A stretch of DNA of 64,000 bases. It comes from Abyssibacter profundi. GTDB taxonomy: Bacteria > Pseudomonadota > Gammaproteobacteria > Nevskiales > OUC007. Location of the stretch: assembly GCF_003151135.1 (NCBI RefSeq), contig NZ_QEQK01000006.1:334-64333 (forward strand). The letters are read 5' to 3'. How positions within the stretch are numbered: the first letter of the stretch is position 1; each line of letters begins with the position of its first letter. The position numbers and the translations under genes were made by a program. The notes below the pieces were generated by a model. The model did not search any database. It saw only the letters and a program-made list of their open reading frames with translations, and had not been told where the DNA came from. Shown here one piece after another: positions 39,965-57,599 of the stretch.

Positions 39965-40546
39965 TCATTTATGGCGCTCCGCGAATCGTGCGATGGCTGC
40001 CAGCAGCCGAACGCATTCGTTTTGGATGGCCAGTAGCTGATCCGCGCTCACGCGCGTGCTTGAGTGAAGGTGGTCTGGCAGGGTGTCCCATGAGCAGATG
40101 AATTCATCATCTCCCAGCATGGTGCTGTGCTGCTTGCCCTCGTGATCCAGCGAAGTCAGCACGCGCAGGCTAAGCATGTCGGGCGGTTTGACGATGTGGT
40201 CGGCGGGCGCGGATTGGGCGGCTTGCGGTGCGTGCTGCTGCAGCGCGTCAAACGCGCGGATCACGTGCAGGTGAAACTTGGGGCTGATCCACATCGCGTA
40301 GGCGTAGACCAGTTCTTTGCAGGCGTACGTGCCGGCCCCGTGACCACCGCGCTTGGTAGCGATGGGGGCAGACGCCAAATCTGGCGTTTGCTCTACTTCC
40401 TTAATCAGGTCCTGCGTTTCTCGGTTGCGAATCCAACGGTTAGGGGTATTCCGTTCAGCGCCGCCGCTGGCCCGATGCAGGTCATTGAGAGAGAAGCGCC
40501 CGTCGCGGGCGCGAATGGTGCGTTCACCGATGGTGAGCTGTGTCAT
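39965..40546 (-). CDS. KilA-N domain antirepressor-type protein
   Basis: 193 residues from ATG at 40546 with AGGAGT upstream. The KilA-N DNA-binding domain covers about 1-100 (DGRFSLNDLHRASGG, NTPNRWIRN, AGTYACKELVYAYAMWISPKFHLHVIRAFD). The C-terminal half is helical and less conserved. Such proteins act as phage antirepressors or lysis-lysogeny switches. The mRNA leader contains complementary segments like those of C4-controlled antirepressors, so translation is likely under antisense control. Confidence 0.88.
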   Translation of the reverse strand: MTQLTIGERTIRARDGRFSLNDLHRASGGAERNTPNRWIRNRETQDLIKEVEQTPDLASAPIATKRGGHGAGTYACKELVYAYAMWISPKFHLHVIRAFDALQQHAPQAAQSAPADHIVKPPDMLSLRVLTSLDHEGKQHSTMLGDDEFICSWDTLPDHLHSSTRVSADQLLAIQNECVRLLAAIARFAERHK

Positions 40547-40560
40547 GGCGACTCCTAGTC

Positions 40561-40575
40561 GAGTTCTGAGAACTC
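40561..40575. promoter_or_regulatory. Perfect palindrome ahead of the KilA-N gene
   Basis: GAGTTCT-G-AGAACTC, a perfect 7-base-pair inverted repeat lying 15 bases before the KilA-N start, next to its ribosome binding site. It could be a repressor site or an RNA hairpin limiting ribosome access. Confidence 0.5.
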
Positions 40576-40606
40576 GCGGAGCCGCTACTACACAGCCCCG
40601 CGAGGT

Positions 40607-40766
40607 GGCCGGGAGGTTAGTAGCCGTGACTAGACGGTGGACTTCTTTCGCGCGAACGCGTGTTGTATCCGTCGCCCTCCCGGCCATAGTCGGACTAATC
40701 CGAATGCCGGGCACAAAAAAACCGCGTAGCTGTCGGGCGCGGGTGCCGCTAGTCATGGAGCTACTA
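40607..40766 (-). ncRNA. C4-like antisense leader of the KilA-N antirepressor (putative)
   Basis: Read leftward, the leader holds two segments that recur downstream in complementary form. TAGTAGC and TGACTAG (within 40749-40766) pair with the GCTACTA and CTAGTCA parts of 40618-40633; GGCCGGGAGG (40676-40685) pairs perfectly with CCTCCCGGCC (40607-40616). Between the halves is a terminator-like CCGCG...CGCGG followed by seven T. This is the plan of the P1/P7/P22-type C4 RNA, which pairs near the start of the antirepressor operon and blocks it. Borders are uncertain and the match to Rfam C4 (RF01695) is from memory. Confidence 0.55.
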
Positions 40767-40862
40767 CACTCCGTACGGCAAGCCTGCGCCGGCGCGCGCT
40801 GGGTTGTCAAGCACGGCGCCATGCGCCGTCTAACAACGGCATGGAGCTCGGCGCAAGCCTCG

Positions 40863-42377
40863 TTACACACTTCGCGTTCCATTCTGATCGCCTCCCTCAT
40901 GCCGAGCGTTTCCTAACGCTTCATCACCAAGCAGCGCGAGCCCGATGAAGTAGTGCGCGTCCTCGCGCCGTTTTTTGGTGACGTCGCCGGCCTGCATTTG
41001 CCTTGAGAACTCTGCTTGGTCGCAGGCCCGGTTCCCGGTGGCCTGGCACCAGTCCAGCCAGGCGTCGTAGGCGTCTGCGATGCGAGTAGATCCAGCCGGC
41101 GATAGCTCGCAGCGCTCGGCGATGAAGGTGCCGATGGCTTCGTCCAGCGTCATGCAGACGTCGGGTTGCGCATGCGCAACGGCCACGGCGGGCTCATCAT
41201 CGATGGCGAGGCGGCCGGTGGGGTGCGCTTTGAGCCACTCAACGATGGTGTCGAGCTGCTGGCCTGAAAGCTCCAGCTCCTTGAATCCGTCTACCTGCCA
41301 GCCCGGCGCGGTCACGCCTACGTGCGCTAGGGCACCGATCAGTCGCGCGAGCTGCTCCGTGGTGGTGACGCTTGCCCGGAAGTTGCGCGTGAGCGCGTTC
41401 CAGTCGGGCACAGGTTTCGCCGCGTTGCCGTGCGGCACAAAGTCAGTGCTGAACAGTTGACCGGTGGTCAAAGCGCAGTAGCTGTGCTCGTCCGCCGGCA
41501 TGCACAGTTGCTGCCGAATCTGCCGCAGCGTGGCGTTCATCTGTTCGCGCAGAGGGCGTAGCTGCTCGTTGGCCTGTCGCCTGGCCCTGTCGGAATCTTG
41601 CTCGGCCTGGGACTTGTTGCTCTGCTGGGGGCGATGCTCCCAGCGCTCGCCGACGAGCACGTAGTCAGGGTCCGCCGCATTGCGTGCGTGTTCCTCCTCG
41701 GCGGCCTTGGCACGCTCACGTGCTCGCTGCAGGCATTCGCGGAACCCTGCGCGGTCCAGCGTGTAGGGCGCTTTCCAATCGTGTCGGACCTGCTCGCCGC
41801 GTATCTGTTTGATGGCGTTGACAGCCAGGCTCTTGAACTCGGCATGCAGCGCATCGAGCGCGTCGGCCGCATCCACATCGGTGATGAGGCCGTCGGCCAC
41901 GAGCTGGCGGATGGGCTCGGCCATGCGGGCGATCTTCGCTCTTCGGCTCACCCAGGTCTTGGACTTGCCCAGCATCGCGGCTACACCACCTACGCCGAGC
42001 GGCGATCCGGTGTTCCCGGGCATTTCCACCAGCTCGCTGATGCCCTGGACCAGCTCGGCCGTGGAGAGGTTTTCGCGCTGGAGATTTTCGACGATCTGGA
42101 TCGCGGCCAGGCCGGCCCGGTTTGTCGATTCGATCACCGCAGCTTCGATGGTCGGCCAGCCCAGCAGTTTGTGCGCGCGATAGCGGCGCTCGCCGGCCAC
42201 AATCAGGTAGTGGTCTGCGCCGTCGGTGTTGGACTGAGGGTCCAGCCGGACGGTGATCGGCTGAATCAGGCCATTCAGGAGAATGCTGTCTGCCAGCTCC
42301 CGGATGTTCTCCTCGTCGAAGTGCTTGCGCGGCTGGTTTGGATCAGGCCGGATGTGGTCGAGCGGGATCTGGGTCAT
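40863..42377 (-). CDS. ParB/Spo0J-type nuclease-fold protein, lone
   Basis: 504 residues from ATG at 42377 with GGAGA upstream; an earlier TTG in the same frame lies inside the operator region and is less likely. The N-terminal ParB/Srx domain (PLDHIRPDPNQPRKHFDEENIRELADSI, then VAGERRYRAHKLLGW) is followed by the KorB-type helix-turn-helix (GVAAMLGKSKTWVSRRAKIARM). The C-terminal half is unrelated and helical. No ParA is nearby. In phages such proteins may act as regulators or nucleases rather than in partition. Divergent from the toxin-antitoxin pair across shared operators. Confidence 0.88.
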   Translation of the reverse strand: MTQIPLDHIRPDPNQPRKHFDEENIRELADSILLNGLIQPITVRLDPQSNTDGADHYLIVAGERRYRAHKLLGWPTIEAAVIESTNRAGLAAIQIVENLQRENLSTAELVQGISELVEMPGNTGSPLGVGGVAAMLGKSKTWVSRRAKIARMAEPIRQLVADGLITDVDAADALDALHAEFKSLAVNAIKQIRGEQVRHDWKAPYTLDRAGFRECLQRARERAKAAEEEHARNAADPDYVLVGERWEHRPQQSNKSQAEQDSDRARRQANEQLRPLREQMNATLRQIRQQLCMPADEHSYCALTTGQLFSTDFVPHGNAAKPVPDWNALTRNFRASVTTTEQLARLIGALAHVGVTAPGWQVDGFKELELSGQQLDTIVEWLKAHPTGRLAIDDEPAVAVAHAQPDVCMTLDEAIGTFIAERCELSPAGSTRIADAYDAWLDWCQATGNRACDQAEFSRQMQAGDVTKKRREDAHYFIGLALLGDEALGNARHEGGDQNGTRSV

Positions 42378-45915: not shown

Positions 45916-46587
45916 CTACCAGGCGCGTCCGCTAAATACCACGACGCCTTTGATGAATACGTTCTCATCAGCTGGGATGATTGGGTCGGGGTACCTGTCA
46001 TTCACGGCGTGAAGGGTTCCATTGCCGTTCTGATCGAGTTTGAGCTGCTTGAAGGTCGTCCGGTCGCTTGTGGCCAAACGGGCGACAACAAAATCATTGT
46101 GGCGAGGGCTGCGCTCGGGATCGACAAAGATGATGTCCCCATCGCTGAACGTAGGCCACATACTTTCTCCAACCACACGCAGGGCATAAGTATGAGGGCC
46201 GCTTCGAGTTGGATTCGGGAGCCATTCCTCTGCTTCACCAGGCGAATAGGGGTCAAAGGTTGGCTCCCAGTCACCGGCCTGAGTCCAGCTTATGAGTGGA
46301 ACGTCATCGCCTCGCGTGGGGGCTTGCTCCAGCGATGAGTCTAGAGGGTATTCGAGCGCATCTTCACGATCGCCATACTTGGCAGCCTCAGGGTCACCAT
46401 CTAGCCATTCATAGCTGACTCCGAAGTGTTCCTTTACGCGGTACATCTCGGACTTGGCAACTCCGCGACGAGTCCAGTTGTTAATAACGGGCACTTCGAG
46501 GCCTAGCGCCTCGGCCAGTCTGACTTGTCCACCCCTTCCCCCCAGGAGCTCCCGGAAGCGAGAGGCGCGTAACTCTGCACGGTTCAT
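45916..46587 (-). CDS. cI: LexA-like self-cleaving CI repressor
   Basis: 223 residues from ATG at 46587 (a TTG 30 bases earlier is also in frame). N-terminal helix-turn-helix of the Cro/CI type (about 12-60), a linker, and an S24 peptidase C-terminus. The autocleavage site is Ala104-Gly105 (WTQAGDW), the nucleophile Ser142 (GESMWPTF) and the general base Lys180 (TTFKQLKL). It should maintain lysogeny and be inactivated through RecA. It is divergent from Cro and flanked by shared operators. Confidence 0.92.
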   Translation of the reverse strand: MNRAELRASRFRELLGGRGGQVRLAEALGLEVPVINNWTRRGVAKSEMYRVKEHFGVSYEWLDGDPEAAKYGDREDALEYPLDSSLEQAPTRGDDVPLISWTQAGDWEPTFDPYSPGEAEEWLPNPTRSGPHTYALRVVGESMWPTFSDGDIIFVDPERSPRHNDFVVARLATSDRTTFKQLKLDQNGNGTLHAVNDRYPDPIIPADENVFIKGVVVFSGRAW

Positions 46588-46620
46588 AAACGAAGTGTTT
46601 AGTTCACTGCGCGGCAAGTC

Positions 46621-54118: not shown

Positions 54119-54592
54119 TCAAATTGCCACCGGGAAGTGGCTATCGCGCAAGTGATTGAAGTTCACCGCTTCCGAACCTCTGGTAACGGTGGCTACATAT
54201 AAATCCAGATCCGCTGTAAGAACAACGAAGTCAGCTTCGGCCTGGCTCAGCAGGACGGAATCAGCCAATCCAAGCCTAATAAACTCTGGGCAATCGATGG
54301 CGGCTTTGCTGGTGACAAACCGTTCGTCGCACTCATGGATAATCGTGCGTAAGGTATGAAATATTTCGCTACGCGCAGGCTCTTCTATGTAAGCGGCCAG
54401 ATTTGACGTTTCCGTAAGAGTGTTTGGGAACAGCAGGATGGCCGAAGCTGCGCTCAACGTTTCTGCTAATAGGTCAAAATCTTGGAGGCAAAAATTACTC
54501 AATCGTTTATGCTTTTCAACATACTCTCGCTTCGTGCTTCCAACGGTGAATAGAAGGAGCAGGTTTGTGTCTAAAAGAATAGTACTCTTCAC
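54119..54592 (-). CDS. PIN-domain ribonuclease-like protein
   Basis: 157 residues from a GTG start (the upstream gene's stop is five bases away, with GGGAAG as ribosome binding site). The acidic quartet of PIN nucleases is present: Asp8 (LLDTN), Glu61 (TLTETSN), Asp111 (GLADSVLL) and Asp128 (VLTADLDLY). It likely cleaves RNA. In toxin-antitoxin systems PIN toxins pair with a small antitoxin; its operon partner here is not a known antitoxin family. Confidence 0.8.
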   Translation of the reverse strand: MKSTILLDTNLLLLFTVGSTKREYVEKHKRLSNFCLQDFDLLAETLSAASAILLFPNTLTETSNLAAYIEEPARSEIFHTLRTIIHECDERFVTSKAAIDCPEFIRLGLADSVLLSQAEADFVVLTADLDLYVATVTRGSEAVNFNHLRDSHFPVAI

Positions 54593-54597
54593 CGTTT

Positions 54598-54873
54598 CTA
54601 AACTTCCCTATTCTTGACGGACAAAACCTCACCCGACGTGTCCGATATTTTTACCATCTTAAATGATCGGCGAGGGAAGTTGGCGCCGCCGGCAAGATTA
54701 GCGAGAGTATTTCTTGGCTCATCCCATGGTCTGGAAAAACCAATTGTTACCAACCATTGCTTGTGATCGATATCCAGCTCAACCTCCTCAAGCCCAACGT
54801 TTCGCACATCTTCATCAGCGAATAACTCGACTACGTGGGTCTTGGCAAGTGTGACTGCATCCTTTACTTTCAT
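54598..54873 (-). CDS. Small partner of the PIN-domain gene, unknown
   Basis: 91 residues from the ATG at 54873 (a TTG at 54903 would add ten). VKDAVTLAKTHVVELFADEDVRNVGLEEVELDIDHKQWLVTIGFSRPWD predicts a helix followed by a small beta-sheet (PepSY-like pattern). It ends 5 bases before the PIN gene, so they are co-transcribed; it may be the antitoxin or a regulator. Start choice is unsure as neither has a clear Shine-Dalgarno. Confidence 0.6.
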   Translation of the reverse strand: MKVKDAVTLAKTHVVELFADEDVRNVGLEEVELDIDHKQWLVTIGFSRPWDEPRNTLANLAGGANFPRRSFKMVKISDTSGEVLSVKNREV

Positions 54874-54962
54874 TTTTCTGTTACCAATTGTGCTGGCGCT
54901 CAAATTTATGGGTGAGGTGCAATATATTGCGCTGCGGAGATTGTGTCGGCTCGGTTCACTTT

Positions 54963-55331
54963 CTATGTTCTTTTTGATGGGAAGACCATTGGCACCGTGA
55001 ATTTTATTCGTGAATTCGAGCCGGATAGTGCTGAGGACTCACCTCCTGCGCCTAGGCCAATAGACACAACTGATACTCTGATGCCCGCATTTGTTTTTTC
55101 GCTCTCGTGAACTGTTACTGCAATGTCGAAATCAACTTTTTCCACTACGCGAGTTCGATCATCGCTACGAGCTTGTGGTCGTGTTCGAGCATAAGCTTGA
55201 GAACTTTCGCTGTTCACAGTTATGGCCGTTGGATTGATGATTGCGTCTGTATGCGCCAAGCTCTCATTGGCTTCAATTATTCCTTCGGCGATCTGCGCTA
55301 ATGAGTCTTTGACGAAGTCTTTCAAGTCCAT
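54963..55331 (-). CDS. Trypco2-like small protein of accessory regions
   Basis: 122 residues beginning MDLKDFVKDSLAQIAEGIIEAN, a start seen in many uncharacterised proteins of prophages and genomic islands related to trypsin-co-occurring (trypco2) domains. After a helical segment it is all beta, with EKVDFDIAVTVHESEKT near the middle. GGGAT upstream of ATG. Trypco domains may couple to effector enzymes in defence, but no such partner is fixed here. Confidence 0.55.
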   Translation of the reverse strand: MDLKDFVKDSLAQIAEGIIEANESLAHTDAIINPTAITVNSESSQAYARTRPQARSDDRTRVVEKVDFDIAVTVHESEKTNAGIRVSVVSIGLGAGGESSALSGSNSRIKFTVPMVFPSKRT

Positions 55332-55422
55332 ATTTTAATCCCGCTGACGGAAACGTCGTATGTTGGAGGCGGATTGCGGCGCAAATCGCTTGGTTGTATA
55401 AATTCAAAAATTCATGTTCATG

Positions 55423-55899
55423 TTAAATTTCTTTGGCTGCACTTCTCGCCACATTGCATAACACGAATGTCAGCAGTCCAATCTGCATGATATTGTTTGC
55501 AAAGCTGGCGAGCATTGCAGAAAACAAGTATCCATGATGCAAGTGTGAAAAATTACCTAGCGCGAGAAAGCTGGTGATGATTAGTGAAGCTACGGTTAAA
55601 AAATAGCAGAACAGAAAAATATCTAAATAGCCGCGCCGTTTGTAGCGGCGGAAGGAGGATGTCTGCGTAAAATTGAACAAGATAGTAATAACGGCAGCAA
55701 GGAACCCTAGCATAGTGAACGCGAAACCCGATACTACTTGGGCTATTGCAGTGCGCTCCGAGGCAAGGCCAAGGCTGAAGGACGGAGCGCATATTTGTAT
55801 CAGCTCATAAGTTGCTAATCCGATGGGCCCAGGAGTCAGCATCATGAAGCTTAGCAAAAGAATTAGGCTCCTTTTTCTTGAACTCGGAATTTGACTCAT
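55423..55899 (-). CDS. RexB-like four-helix membrane protein
   Basis: 158 residues with four hydrophobic segments (about 11-32, 53-77, 93-113, 124-148), matching lambda RexB in size and topology. Similar local features: VVSGFAFTMLGFLAAVITILFNF against RexB's second helix region, then a basic loop with FRRYKRRGY. In lambda, RexB is the membrane channel that depolarises the cell when RexA is activated by phage infection. It overlaps the RexA-like gene by 95 bases, with AAGG upstream of its ATG. Sequence identity to RexB is low; the call leans on its neighbour. Confidence 0.7.
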   Translation of the reverse strand: MSQIPSSRKRSLILLLSFMMLTPGPIGLATYELIQICAPSFSLGLASERTAIAQVVSGFAFTMLGFLAAVITILFNFTQTSSFRRYKRRGYLDIFLFCYFLTVASLIITSFLALGNFSHLHHGYLFSAMLASFANNIMQIGLLTFVLCNVARSAAKEI

Positions 55900-56734
55900 G
55901 CTCTACGACCTTTTGCTGAAGGGTGCTGTTGGTTTTGATTTTTTCCTTTATCTGCTCGTGAATTGTGCGATCTTTTGTCTTGATGATGTTGTCTGACACA
56001 TGGCCTTTGCCAGCGAGATAAACATCCATTATCTCGTCTCCGATTTCTTCGCGGGCTCTGATCATCATTTTATCTAATCCCTCGTCTCGAACGCCTGCAA
56101 TAACCTTTTTTACTGCAGGTTCAATATTCTGCTTCCTCCTTGGTTTGATCGTTAGTTCGAATGAGTCGACATCTGCAAATTCTTCTGAAGTGCCATTAAA
56201 AAAATTCCTAATGTCCTCGTAAAAGGAATTTTCCTTTGTGACTTGAATAACGGAGCGCCCGATGAAGTCCATTTTCATCGCATCCGCCTTCGTTGATTGA
56301 GTTAGAAGAGGGTTGAGTATGATGTTATATCGTCCAAGACCAATTGCATCGCACAATTCGTTGAGGAATACACTGAAGGTCTTGGAGCGAGGCGCCATGA
56401 CCGTTGAAGCGAACCCGAGGAAGCTAGCCCCCATATAGACGTATGAAGCAAAACCTATCTGCTCGTCGGCGCTAAGTAGATCGTAAATTTCAGTGACTGA
56501 CAAATCGCTCGATTTAATCTTCCTGATGATCTCGTTTGTACGGGTCATCAGGAATAGGTAAAGATTATCAGTTACTGGAAGTAGAAATAGACTCTCATCA
56601 GCATAACTAAACTGACTCTTGAACTTAACATCATCTAGCTGCACGAAGGCTCTGATGAACGGCCTTAAATCAAAAAGGTACTGCTGATCGCTTTTCTGCT
56701 TTAATATAGAGTACCCAAAGTAAGAAACTTTCAC
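55805..56734 (-). CDS. RexA-like phage exclusion protein
   Basis: 309 residues from GTG at 56734 with GGAG eight bases upstream. Recalled lambda RexA aligns along most of its length: DEQIGFASYVYMGASFLGFA to DESLGFPSFLFVEGDTIGFA, DFIGRSVIQV to HFIGRTTVKV, DSFELTIKPRRKQNI to DSLDIVIKPKFKRDI, and AREEIGDEIMDVYLAGKGHVS to AKDEAGDILTEHYLSEKGHLS. It has about 30 extra residues at the C-terminus, the part that overlaps rexB. RexA senses a phage replication or recombination intermediate and activates RexB. Here the pair is not next to cI but in a reverse-strand cassette. Confidence 0.85.
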   Translation of the reverse strand: MKVSYFGYSILKQKSDQQYLFDLRPFIRAFVQLDDVKFKSQFSYADESLFLLPVTDNLYLFLMTRTNEIIRKIKSSDLSVTEIYDLLSADEQIGFASYVYMGASFLGFASTVMAPRSKTFSVFLNELCDAIGLGRYNIILNPLLTQSTKADAMKMDFIGRSVIQVTKENSFYEDIRNFFNGTSEEFADVDSFELTIKPRRKQNIEPAVKKVIAGVRDEGLDKMMIRAREEIGDEIMDVYLAGKGHVSDNIIKTKDRTIHEQIKEKIKTNSTLQQKVVEHESNSEFKKKEPNSFAKLHDADSWAHRISNL

Positions 56735-56876
56735 CTATTGTCTCCACTTGTTTTTGTAATTAAATACCCACGTGCGTCGGCGTTTGTGGCGGCGCTCGTA
56801 TTATTCTTTGCAAGAAGCTGCAGAGAGATTTAATAGCCTGTTGCAACTAATAGTGCTGTATTGCCGGCGCGACGCC

Positions 56877-57599
56877 TTACCCTTGCAATCCGTCTACGGT
56901 AAGCTGAATGTCGTTAGCCGTTGATTGTATCGCTTCACATGTTGCCTCAGTGTTCGAGACAGTTGATTCAATATCTTCGCAAGTACTATCGATTTCTTCA
57001 ACTTTGCTCATAATGTCATCTAGTGAACTGTATCCATCGATGTTGCGCACAGCGCTCTCTATAGACTCCAGGCGCTGTTGTATTAACCCCAAGACCTGCT
57101 CTGACGGAACCTCGCTGTTTTTTAAAGCTTCAAGCTGCAGTGAGACAGTTATTGGGTTGTCAACCTTCGATGGATCGTTTTCTACAGCAGTTATCTGTGC
57201 TTTCAATTCCTTCTTTGCATGTCCGACGCTTTCTAGGTCAGTATGGTCAATAAATATTGTTCGAGATGCGGCAACATCAAACGGGATTTTGTGCCCCTTC
57301 TCGATAATTTGAACAAGCGGCTTGCCAATCATATGCCTAATTGCAAGTTCGTAGAATACATTGGGGTTAAGGTCTGTTAGATCCGCAATTACTAAATCGT
57401 CGTCGGTGATATGTTTGATGATCTGCGAAGTGATGATCCCCGGCTCGCCAATGCTGTCTGCCCTTACTGGTTCGGCGTAGCCTAAAGTCTGTACCACCTC
57501 TCCAAGAACGTACTTCAATACCTTATCCGAGCGCTGTCTTGCAGGCGACCCAGTAGCACCAATCGGCGCGATGACGAAACACGTCTTTTTCTTTGACAT
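56877..57599 (-). CDS. Deoxyribosyltransferase/TIR-like protein with coiled-coil tail
   Basis: 240 residues with GGGGAG before the ATG. Residues 5-130 form a Rossmann-like domain of the nucleoside deoxyribosyltransferase/TIR superfamily: CFVIAPIG at 7-14, then DLTDLNPNVFYELAIRH, with Asp73/Asp76, Asn80, Tyr83, Glu84 and His89. This is the family's active-site-like segment (Glu84 would be the catalytic acid in an NDT-type fold). The C-terminal ~75 residues are a heptad coiled coil (EEIDSTCEDIESTVSNTEATCEAIQSTAN). It could be an NAD or nucleotide-degrading effector; enzyme activity is not proven. Confidence 0.7.
   Translation of the reverse strand: MSKKKTCFVIAPIGATGSPARQRSDKVLKYVLGEVVQTLGYAEPVRADSIGEPGIITSQIIKHITDDDLVIADLTDLNPNVFYELAIRHMIGKPLVQIIEKGHKIPFDVAASRTIFIDHTDLESVGHAKKELKAQITAVENDPSKVDNPITVSLQLEALKNSEVPSEQVLGLIQQRLESIESAVRNIDGYSSLDDIMSKVEEIDSTCEDIESTVSNTEATCEAIQSTANDIQLTVDGLQG

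Follow-up and report, generated by a model that had tools for sequence, protein, structure and literature searches.

A predicted C4-type antisense RNA of the sRNA-Xcc1 family upstream of a prophage KilA-N gene in Abyssibacter profundi

The KilA-N gene and its leader

The window, that is, the whole stretch of DNA analysed, comprises 64,000 nt of the forward strand of Abyssibacter profundi contig NZ_QEQK01000006.1 (positions 334 to 64,333). Since an integrase gene adjoining a tRNA gene is accompanied by genes for a ParB-like protein, an S24 repressor, primase/helicase, and terminase, the window was concluded to contain a prophage; an excisionase-like protein of the same prophage gave a sub-threshold match. 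The S24 protein (45919-46617) is a candidate prophage repressor. Directly after the terminase gene, a run of genes on the minus strand (54122-57599) shows a third-position G+C of 0.40-0.51, unlike the rest of the prophage, and is possibly foreign cargo.

A protein of 193 aa with a KilA-N domain (Pfam PF04383, E 2.6e-23) is encoded on the minus strand at positions 39965-40546. It matches PHROG 129, transcriptional regulator (4e-41), and PHROG 2127, anti-repressor (5.8e-8), and, going only by these family names, it is probably an antirepressor, or else a regulator. Its reading frame remains open through the leader up to an ATG at 40900 (ORF 39965-40900, minus strand). If this frame were used, the leader would be coding and the repeats described below would be protein sequence. 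Against this, the three codon positions hardly differ in G+C within the leader (0.63/0.62/0.62), unlike in the KilA-N gene (0.66/0.46/0.72), the leaders of most relatives contain in-frame stops, and the ATG at 40546 has its own Shine-Dalgarno sequence, with relatives beginning at the same place. A coding leader was rejected on codon-position G+C and on the stops in relatives, and we regard it as extremely improbable. With a frame open across a structured leader, an automatic gene caller may start KilA-N too early.

Read 5' to 3' on the minus strand, the region 40546-40769 is arranged in the order a1, b1, terminator-like hairpin, an RNA of 87 nt, a2, small hairpin, b2, and the ATG of KilA-N. 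An earlier sequence-only reading had proposed a C4-like antisense leader here, and the strings it named are all present on this strand. As it had claimed, the upstream target copies a1 (TAGTAGC, 40760-40766) and b1 (TGACTAG, 40749-40755) are complementary to a' (GCTACTA, 40618-40624) and b' (CTAGTCA, 40627-40633), respectively; according to the model structure, b' forms the loop of hairpin 2 of the RNA and a' its 3' linker. Another target copy had been overlooked. It consists of a2 (TAGTAGC, 40584-40590) in the KilA-N leader, complementary to a', and b2 (GACTAG, 40555-40560), complementary to b', located 8 nt before the ATG at 40546, and overlapping the Shine-Dalgarno sequence AGGAG (40552-40556). 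The sequence GTGTAGTAGC (40760-40769) is present twice, without mismatch, at a1 and at a2. Two traits of C4 are therefore found in the leader: two short antisense stretches match a site upstream of KilA-N and its ribosome binding site, and a second target copy, a1/b1, is located 5' of the RNA.

Between a2 and b2, the palindrome GAGTTCTCAGAACTC forms a spacer hairpin (GAGTTC-TCA-GAACTC, 40561-40575). This palindrome, noted earlier at the ribosome binding site, is located just 5' of the Shine-Dalgarno sequence. By eye, a hairpin at the same place is visible in phage P1 and in C4-type KilA-N leaders. The terminator-like hairpin with its T run, also part of the earlier proposal, was recovered at 40715-40742 (CCGCG-11 nt-CGCGG-TTTTTTT), an isrK-like position between a1/b1 and the RNA. 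Its loop exceeded the limit of the terminator scan, and it was detected by a separate script searching for stems. Such a hairpin is also present in many relatives and in phage P1. A sigma-70 promoter scan of the leader found none; a TTGACA at 40805-40810 (minus strand) is a possible, weak -35 region of a leader transcript lacking an acceptable -10, and the same hexamer occurs at this relative place in several relatives.

Scanning the whole window with Rfam at curated thresholds yielded tRNAs only. In a sensitive scan of 40400-40950, positions 40599-40685 of the minus strand aligned with RF02221, sRNA-Xcc1, over model positions 1-87 with 50.4 bits (E 4.5e-8), which is 2.6 bits below the gathering score of 53. 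Several relatives with an RNA at this place before KilA-N exceed the cut-off (for example, 79.3 bits in L145, 68.1 in L147, and 58.3 in L144). In addition to the full-length alignment, the window RNA shows the closing stem, hairpin 1 with the AUACAA motif, and hairpin 2 of sRNA-Xcc1. Our own model R1, whose training set included this sequence, gives it 65.1 bits. The C4 model RF01695, a missing match to which was one of two refuting outcomes named by the sequence-only reading, detected nothing at the gathering score in the window, up to E 10 in 40400-40950, or up to E 1 in the whole genome, and the isrK model RF01394 had no match in 40400-40950 up to E 10. By covariance model, the window RNA thus is a member of the sRNA-Xcc1 family and not of Rfam C4. 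The closing stem is formed by GGCCGGGAGG (5' arm, 40676-40685) and CCTCCCGGCC (3' arm, 40607-40616), the latter followed by ACC. These strings had been interpreted as an antisense pair; they are complementary, but as the two arms of this stem. Compensatory changes in both arms support the stem, and in an alignment of 55 relatives double changes were observed in 12 of the 15 pairs of closing stem and hairpins.

Matching changes in the RNA and its flanks

Using the KilA-N protein as query, 80 viral and 51 genome loci were fetched. The R1 model, built from 55 sRNA-Xcc1 RNAs that did not include these KilA-N loci except the one in the window, matched 47 of 100 KilA-N loci, in 46 cases just 5' of KilA-N and on the same strand. 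Many of these loci are near-identical; 32 have distinct antisense regions, counting the window itself and a non-adjacent match in L219. Complementarity was quantified by a swap test: the lengths of the two longest complementary runs that an antisense region forms with its own flank are added up, and this value is compared with those obtained with the flanks of all other members. For the 32 loci, the values for own and swapped flanks are 12.5 and 8.6 downstream, and 11.75 and 9.2 upstream (p 1e-4 each). One locus, L162, carries a tandem pair of sRNA-Xcc1-like RNAs (2139-2225 and 2371-2457) before a single KilA-N gene.

Among 20 KilA-N loci negative with R1, seven contain, equally far from KilA-N, an RNA that passes the gathering score of Rfam C4, and in five of these seven isrK is located upstream. 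A C4-type RNA linked to KilA-N is accordingly not confined to this host; other KilA-N loci have either C4 or sRNA-Xcc1. None of the C4 loci was matched by R1, and P1 gave no hit with RF02221. The two RNAs, mutually undetected by model, fill the same place before KilA-N with the same loop-and-linker logic. That the window RNA could be a true member of the P1/P7 C4 family was considered because the order of parts and the use of the hairpin-2 loop and the 3' linker are the same and C4 occupies this slot in KilA-N relatives. With no RF01695 match in window or genome, no cross-detection by the models, and a conserved AUACAA..GGGGAAUA internal loop in hairpin 1 that is absent from the C4 sequences compared, this membership appears very unlikely. 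The proposal of a C4 plan controlling KilA-N consequently stands with regard to the order of elements, the compensatory changes, and the presence of C4 in the same slot elsewhere, but not as a match to the C4 model. C4 and sRNA-Xcc1 may share descent, as is suggested by the resemblance, judged by eye, between the upstream terminators of P1 and the window.

Blastn searches with the leader gave no match among plasmids and a single one among phages, in Bordetella phage IFTN1, where an annotated antirepressor shows the same plan. In this phage, two annotated antirepressor genes are arranged in tandem behind an sRNA-Xcc1 RNA (L009, 3200-4840).

Searches with RF02221 over 61, 369, and 398 genomes revealed more than 100 members. 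The family is widespread: in the set of 398 genomes, a sample of the phylum, 58 were positive. In total, 127 copies were extracted with their flanks, 111 of them with distinct antisense regions. For these 111 RNAs, the swap test gave 11.9 for own versus 9.7 for swapped flanks downstream, and a run of at least 7 was present in 58% versus 15%. Upstream, the corresponding values are 14.2 versus 10.1 and 89% versus 21%. Hairpin 1, used as a control, showed almost no difference (9.3 versus 9.2 downstream, 10.1 versus 9.9 upstream). Permutation resulted in z values of 16.4 downstream and 28.4 upstream; when only the last 45 nt ahead of the start codon were considered, z was 21.8 (92 RNAs), compared with -0.07 for a 45-nt control segment from within the gene. 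Strong a2 and b2 were detected in 58 of the 111 RNAs, about half failing the criterion used, and in these 58 the distance from the end of b2 to the start codon has a median of 8 nt. The loop and linker of the window RNA were matched as well as by their own flanks in only one of 108 foreign downstream flanks and in none of 108 foreign upstream flanks. Predicted pairing of loop and linker with the neighbouring gene's ribosome binding site is thereby supported by compensatory evolution, and the arm changes in relatives whose absence the sequence-only reading had named as the other refuting outcome are present. The same plan with matching changes recurs in phages and mobile elements across Proteobacteria.

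The first genes after 84 sRNA-Xcc1 RNAs encode SymE-like toxins (9), Bro-N (7), phage Rha (pRha, 5), KilA-N (3), and P22_AR_N (2) proteins, counts that are approximate, as gene starts were picked by a simple rule. Downstream genes also match many PHROG anti-repressor families, and many others encode short proteins without family. Complementary stretches at the Shine-Dalgarno sequence were noticed where sRNA-Xcc1 precedes SymE-like toxin genes (L010, L012, L035, L036, L059, L069, and others). Some genomes contain five to nine sRNA-Xcc1 copies, several of them with different loops before different short genes (G690, G803, and G505; for example L051, L079, L084-L091; L053, L081-L086; L096, L104, L120, L121).

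In an alternative view, host genes elsewhere in the genome are the main targets of the small RNA, and its neighbourhood to KilA-N is incidental. It would agree with the literature, in which sRNA-Xcc1 is treated as virulence-linked, with many predicted targets and control by HrpG/HrpX (PMC2996969, PMC12189769). Co-variation of loop and linker with the adjoining gene's ribosome binding site in unrelated genomes and the conserved linkage to KilA-N argue against it, and we consider it very improbable.

Pairing and proposed mode of action

The most probable interpretation, to which we assign a probability of roughly 0.8, is that an antisense RNA of C4 type, encoded in the leader and belonging to the sRNA-Xcc1 family, keeps the prophage KilA-N gene untranslated. 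From the order of the elements, a leader transcript would run from a1/b1 through the terminator and the RNA to a2/b2 and KilA-N. The 87-nt core is predicted to fold into the closing stem and two hairpins, as supported by covariation, and would be cut from the transcript, probably by RNase P as is the case for C4; the ACC after the closing stem and the tRNA-like stem appear compatible with 5' processing by RNase P. The hairpin-2 loop b' and the 3' linker a' would then pair with b2 at the Shine-Dalgarno sequence and with a2, for which compensatory evolution speaks, and this pairing may block initiation. A short a1/b1 RNA ending at the terminator could compete for a'/b' and relieve repression, by analogy with IsrK in Gifsy-1. 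KilA-N protein, once made, might counter the prophage repressor, perhaps the S24 protein.

Folding calculations add to this picture. The leader folds more stably than shuffled sequences (z -3.1). Single pairings are short, 6-7 bp each, and the duplex energies are -32.3 kcal/mol for a1b1:a'b' versus -22.5 kcal/mol for a2b2:a'b'. In two-strand folding of the RNA with the leader, the gain was -3.5 kcal/mol and equalled that of shuffled targets (-3.5 kcal/mol), in a model that does not cover loop-loop contacts. The missing advantage over shuffled targets is attributed to the leader's own hairpin hiding the Shine-Dalgarno sequence. Because shuffled targets gain equally, two-strand folding was dropped as thermodynamic proof of an RNA-leader duplex.

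In the minimum-energy fold of the whole leader, a1/b1 is paired with a'/b', the stronger of the two duplexes. These data would also fit a switch acting only in cis, in which both halves are part of one long leader whose two folds render the ribosome binding site inaccessible or accessible and no separate small RNA is involved; for IsrK-orf45 in Gifsy-1, two such alternative folds are described (PMC4825925). On the other hand, a terminator separates the two halves, the Xanthomonas sRNA-Xcc1 is a discrete RNA of about 88 nt according to Northern blot and end mapping (PMC2996969), and C4 acts in processed form (PMC5320573). A purely cis-acting leader therefore seems rather unlikely, clearly less so than the other alternatives discussed above. 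It is compatible with action in trans, and a cis effect may add to the trans effect.

With regard to the family, our best reading is that sRNA-Xcc1 would control antirepressors (KilA-N, Bro, Rha, P22-type) and SymE toxins as an antisense regulator of C4 type. The family as a whole is quite likely a second great lineage of C4-type switches, with a single scaffold whose loop and linker are adapted to each new neighbour. It would guard antirepressors in phages and, in integron cassettes and further mobile elements, SymE toxins, and would be able to replace C4 at the same gene. C4-type control as such is known; the main consequence of this work would be the reassignment of a whole Rfam family. It offers a concrete candidate mechanism for sRNA-Xcc1, in which each RNA pairs with the ribosome binding site of the gene that follows it, and makes the target of each member predictable from sequence alone. 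At one and the same antirepressor gene, temperate phages can use either the C4 or the Xcc1 scaffold, a point of relevance to changes of immunity specificity. A search of the openly accessible literature for a paper joining sRNA-Xcc1 to C4 or antirepressors found none, and priority is not asserted.

Comparison with known systems

sRNA-Xcc1 (RF02221) has been known since 2010. The window RNA shares with it the full-length match, the closing stem, and the two hairpins with the conserved AUACAA in hairpin 1; it differs in scoring just under the cut-off, and the literature gives the family no cis target (PMC2996969, PMC12189769, PMC12444791). In the most widespread Xanthomonas integron cassette, sRNA-Xcc1 is located upstream of symE, with the mechanism unexplained (PMC12444791). 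In one published listing, Xcc1, C4, and isrK are close together in Xylella, but they are not linked there.

The SymE/SymR system is comparable to those sRNA-Xcc1 copies that are located before SymE-like genes and are complementary to the ribosome binding sites there; the window itself has no part in this comparison. The gene for SymR lies opposite symE (PMC1891008), whereas sRNA-Xcc1 is found upstream on the same strand. The sRNA-Xcc1/SymE pair is a candidate type I toxin-antitoxin system in which the antitoxin RNA would precede the toxin gene.

As in the IsrK-orf45-anrP region of Gifsy-1 (RF01394), a short RNA ending at a terminator is predicted to pair with the downstream leader. There, the short upstream RNA, IsrK, acts in trans and increases AnrP antirepressor translation about 140-fold (PMC4825925). 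Such activation is established in Gifsy-1 and would be expected by analogy in the window. The isrK model has no match in the window, although isrK is located upstream of C4 in KilA-N relatives.

The closest parallel in design is C4 of P1/P7 (RF01695) together with c4-a1b1, a separate motif in Weinberg et al. (PMC2864571). RNase P releases C4 from a longer transcript; the b' loop of C4 covers the ribosome binding site and a' confers specificity (PMC5320573). The P1 C4 RNA scores 68.8 bits with the Rfam C4 model. It is preceded by TTGACAG, GTTAGTG, and a hairpin with a T run, and followed by TTGACAG and GTTAGTGA close to the start codon, while the matching stretches are located in the second hairpin and the 3' linker. 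Common to both systems are the order a1, b1, terminator-like hairpin, RNA, a2, hairpin, and b2 at the ribosome binding site, pairing by the hairpin-2 loop and the 3' linker, a closing stem ending in GCCACC, and an antirepressor operon as the controlled, in the window predicted, unit. The window RNA differs in having no match to the C4 model and another hairpin 1, and its predicted target is KilA-N itself, without a short leader ORF (icd) in between.
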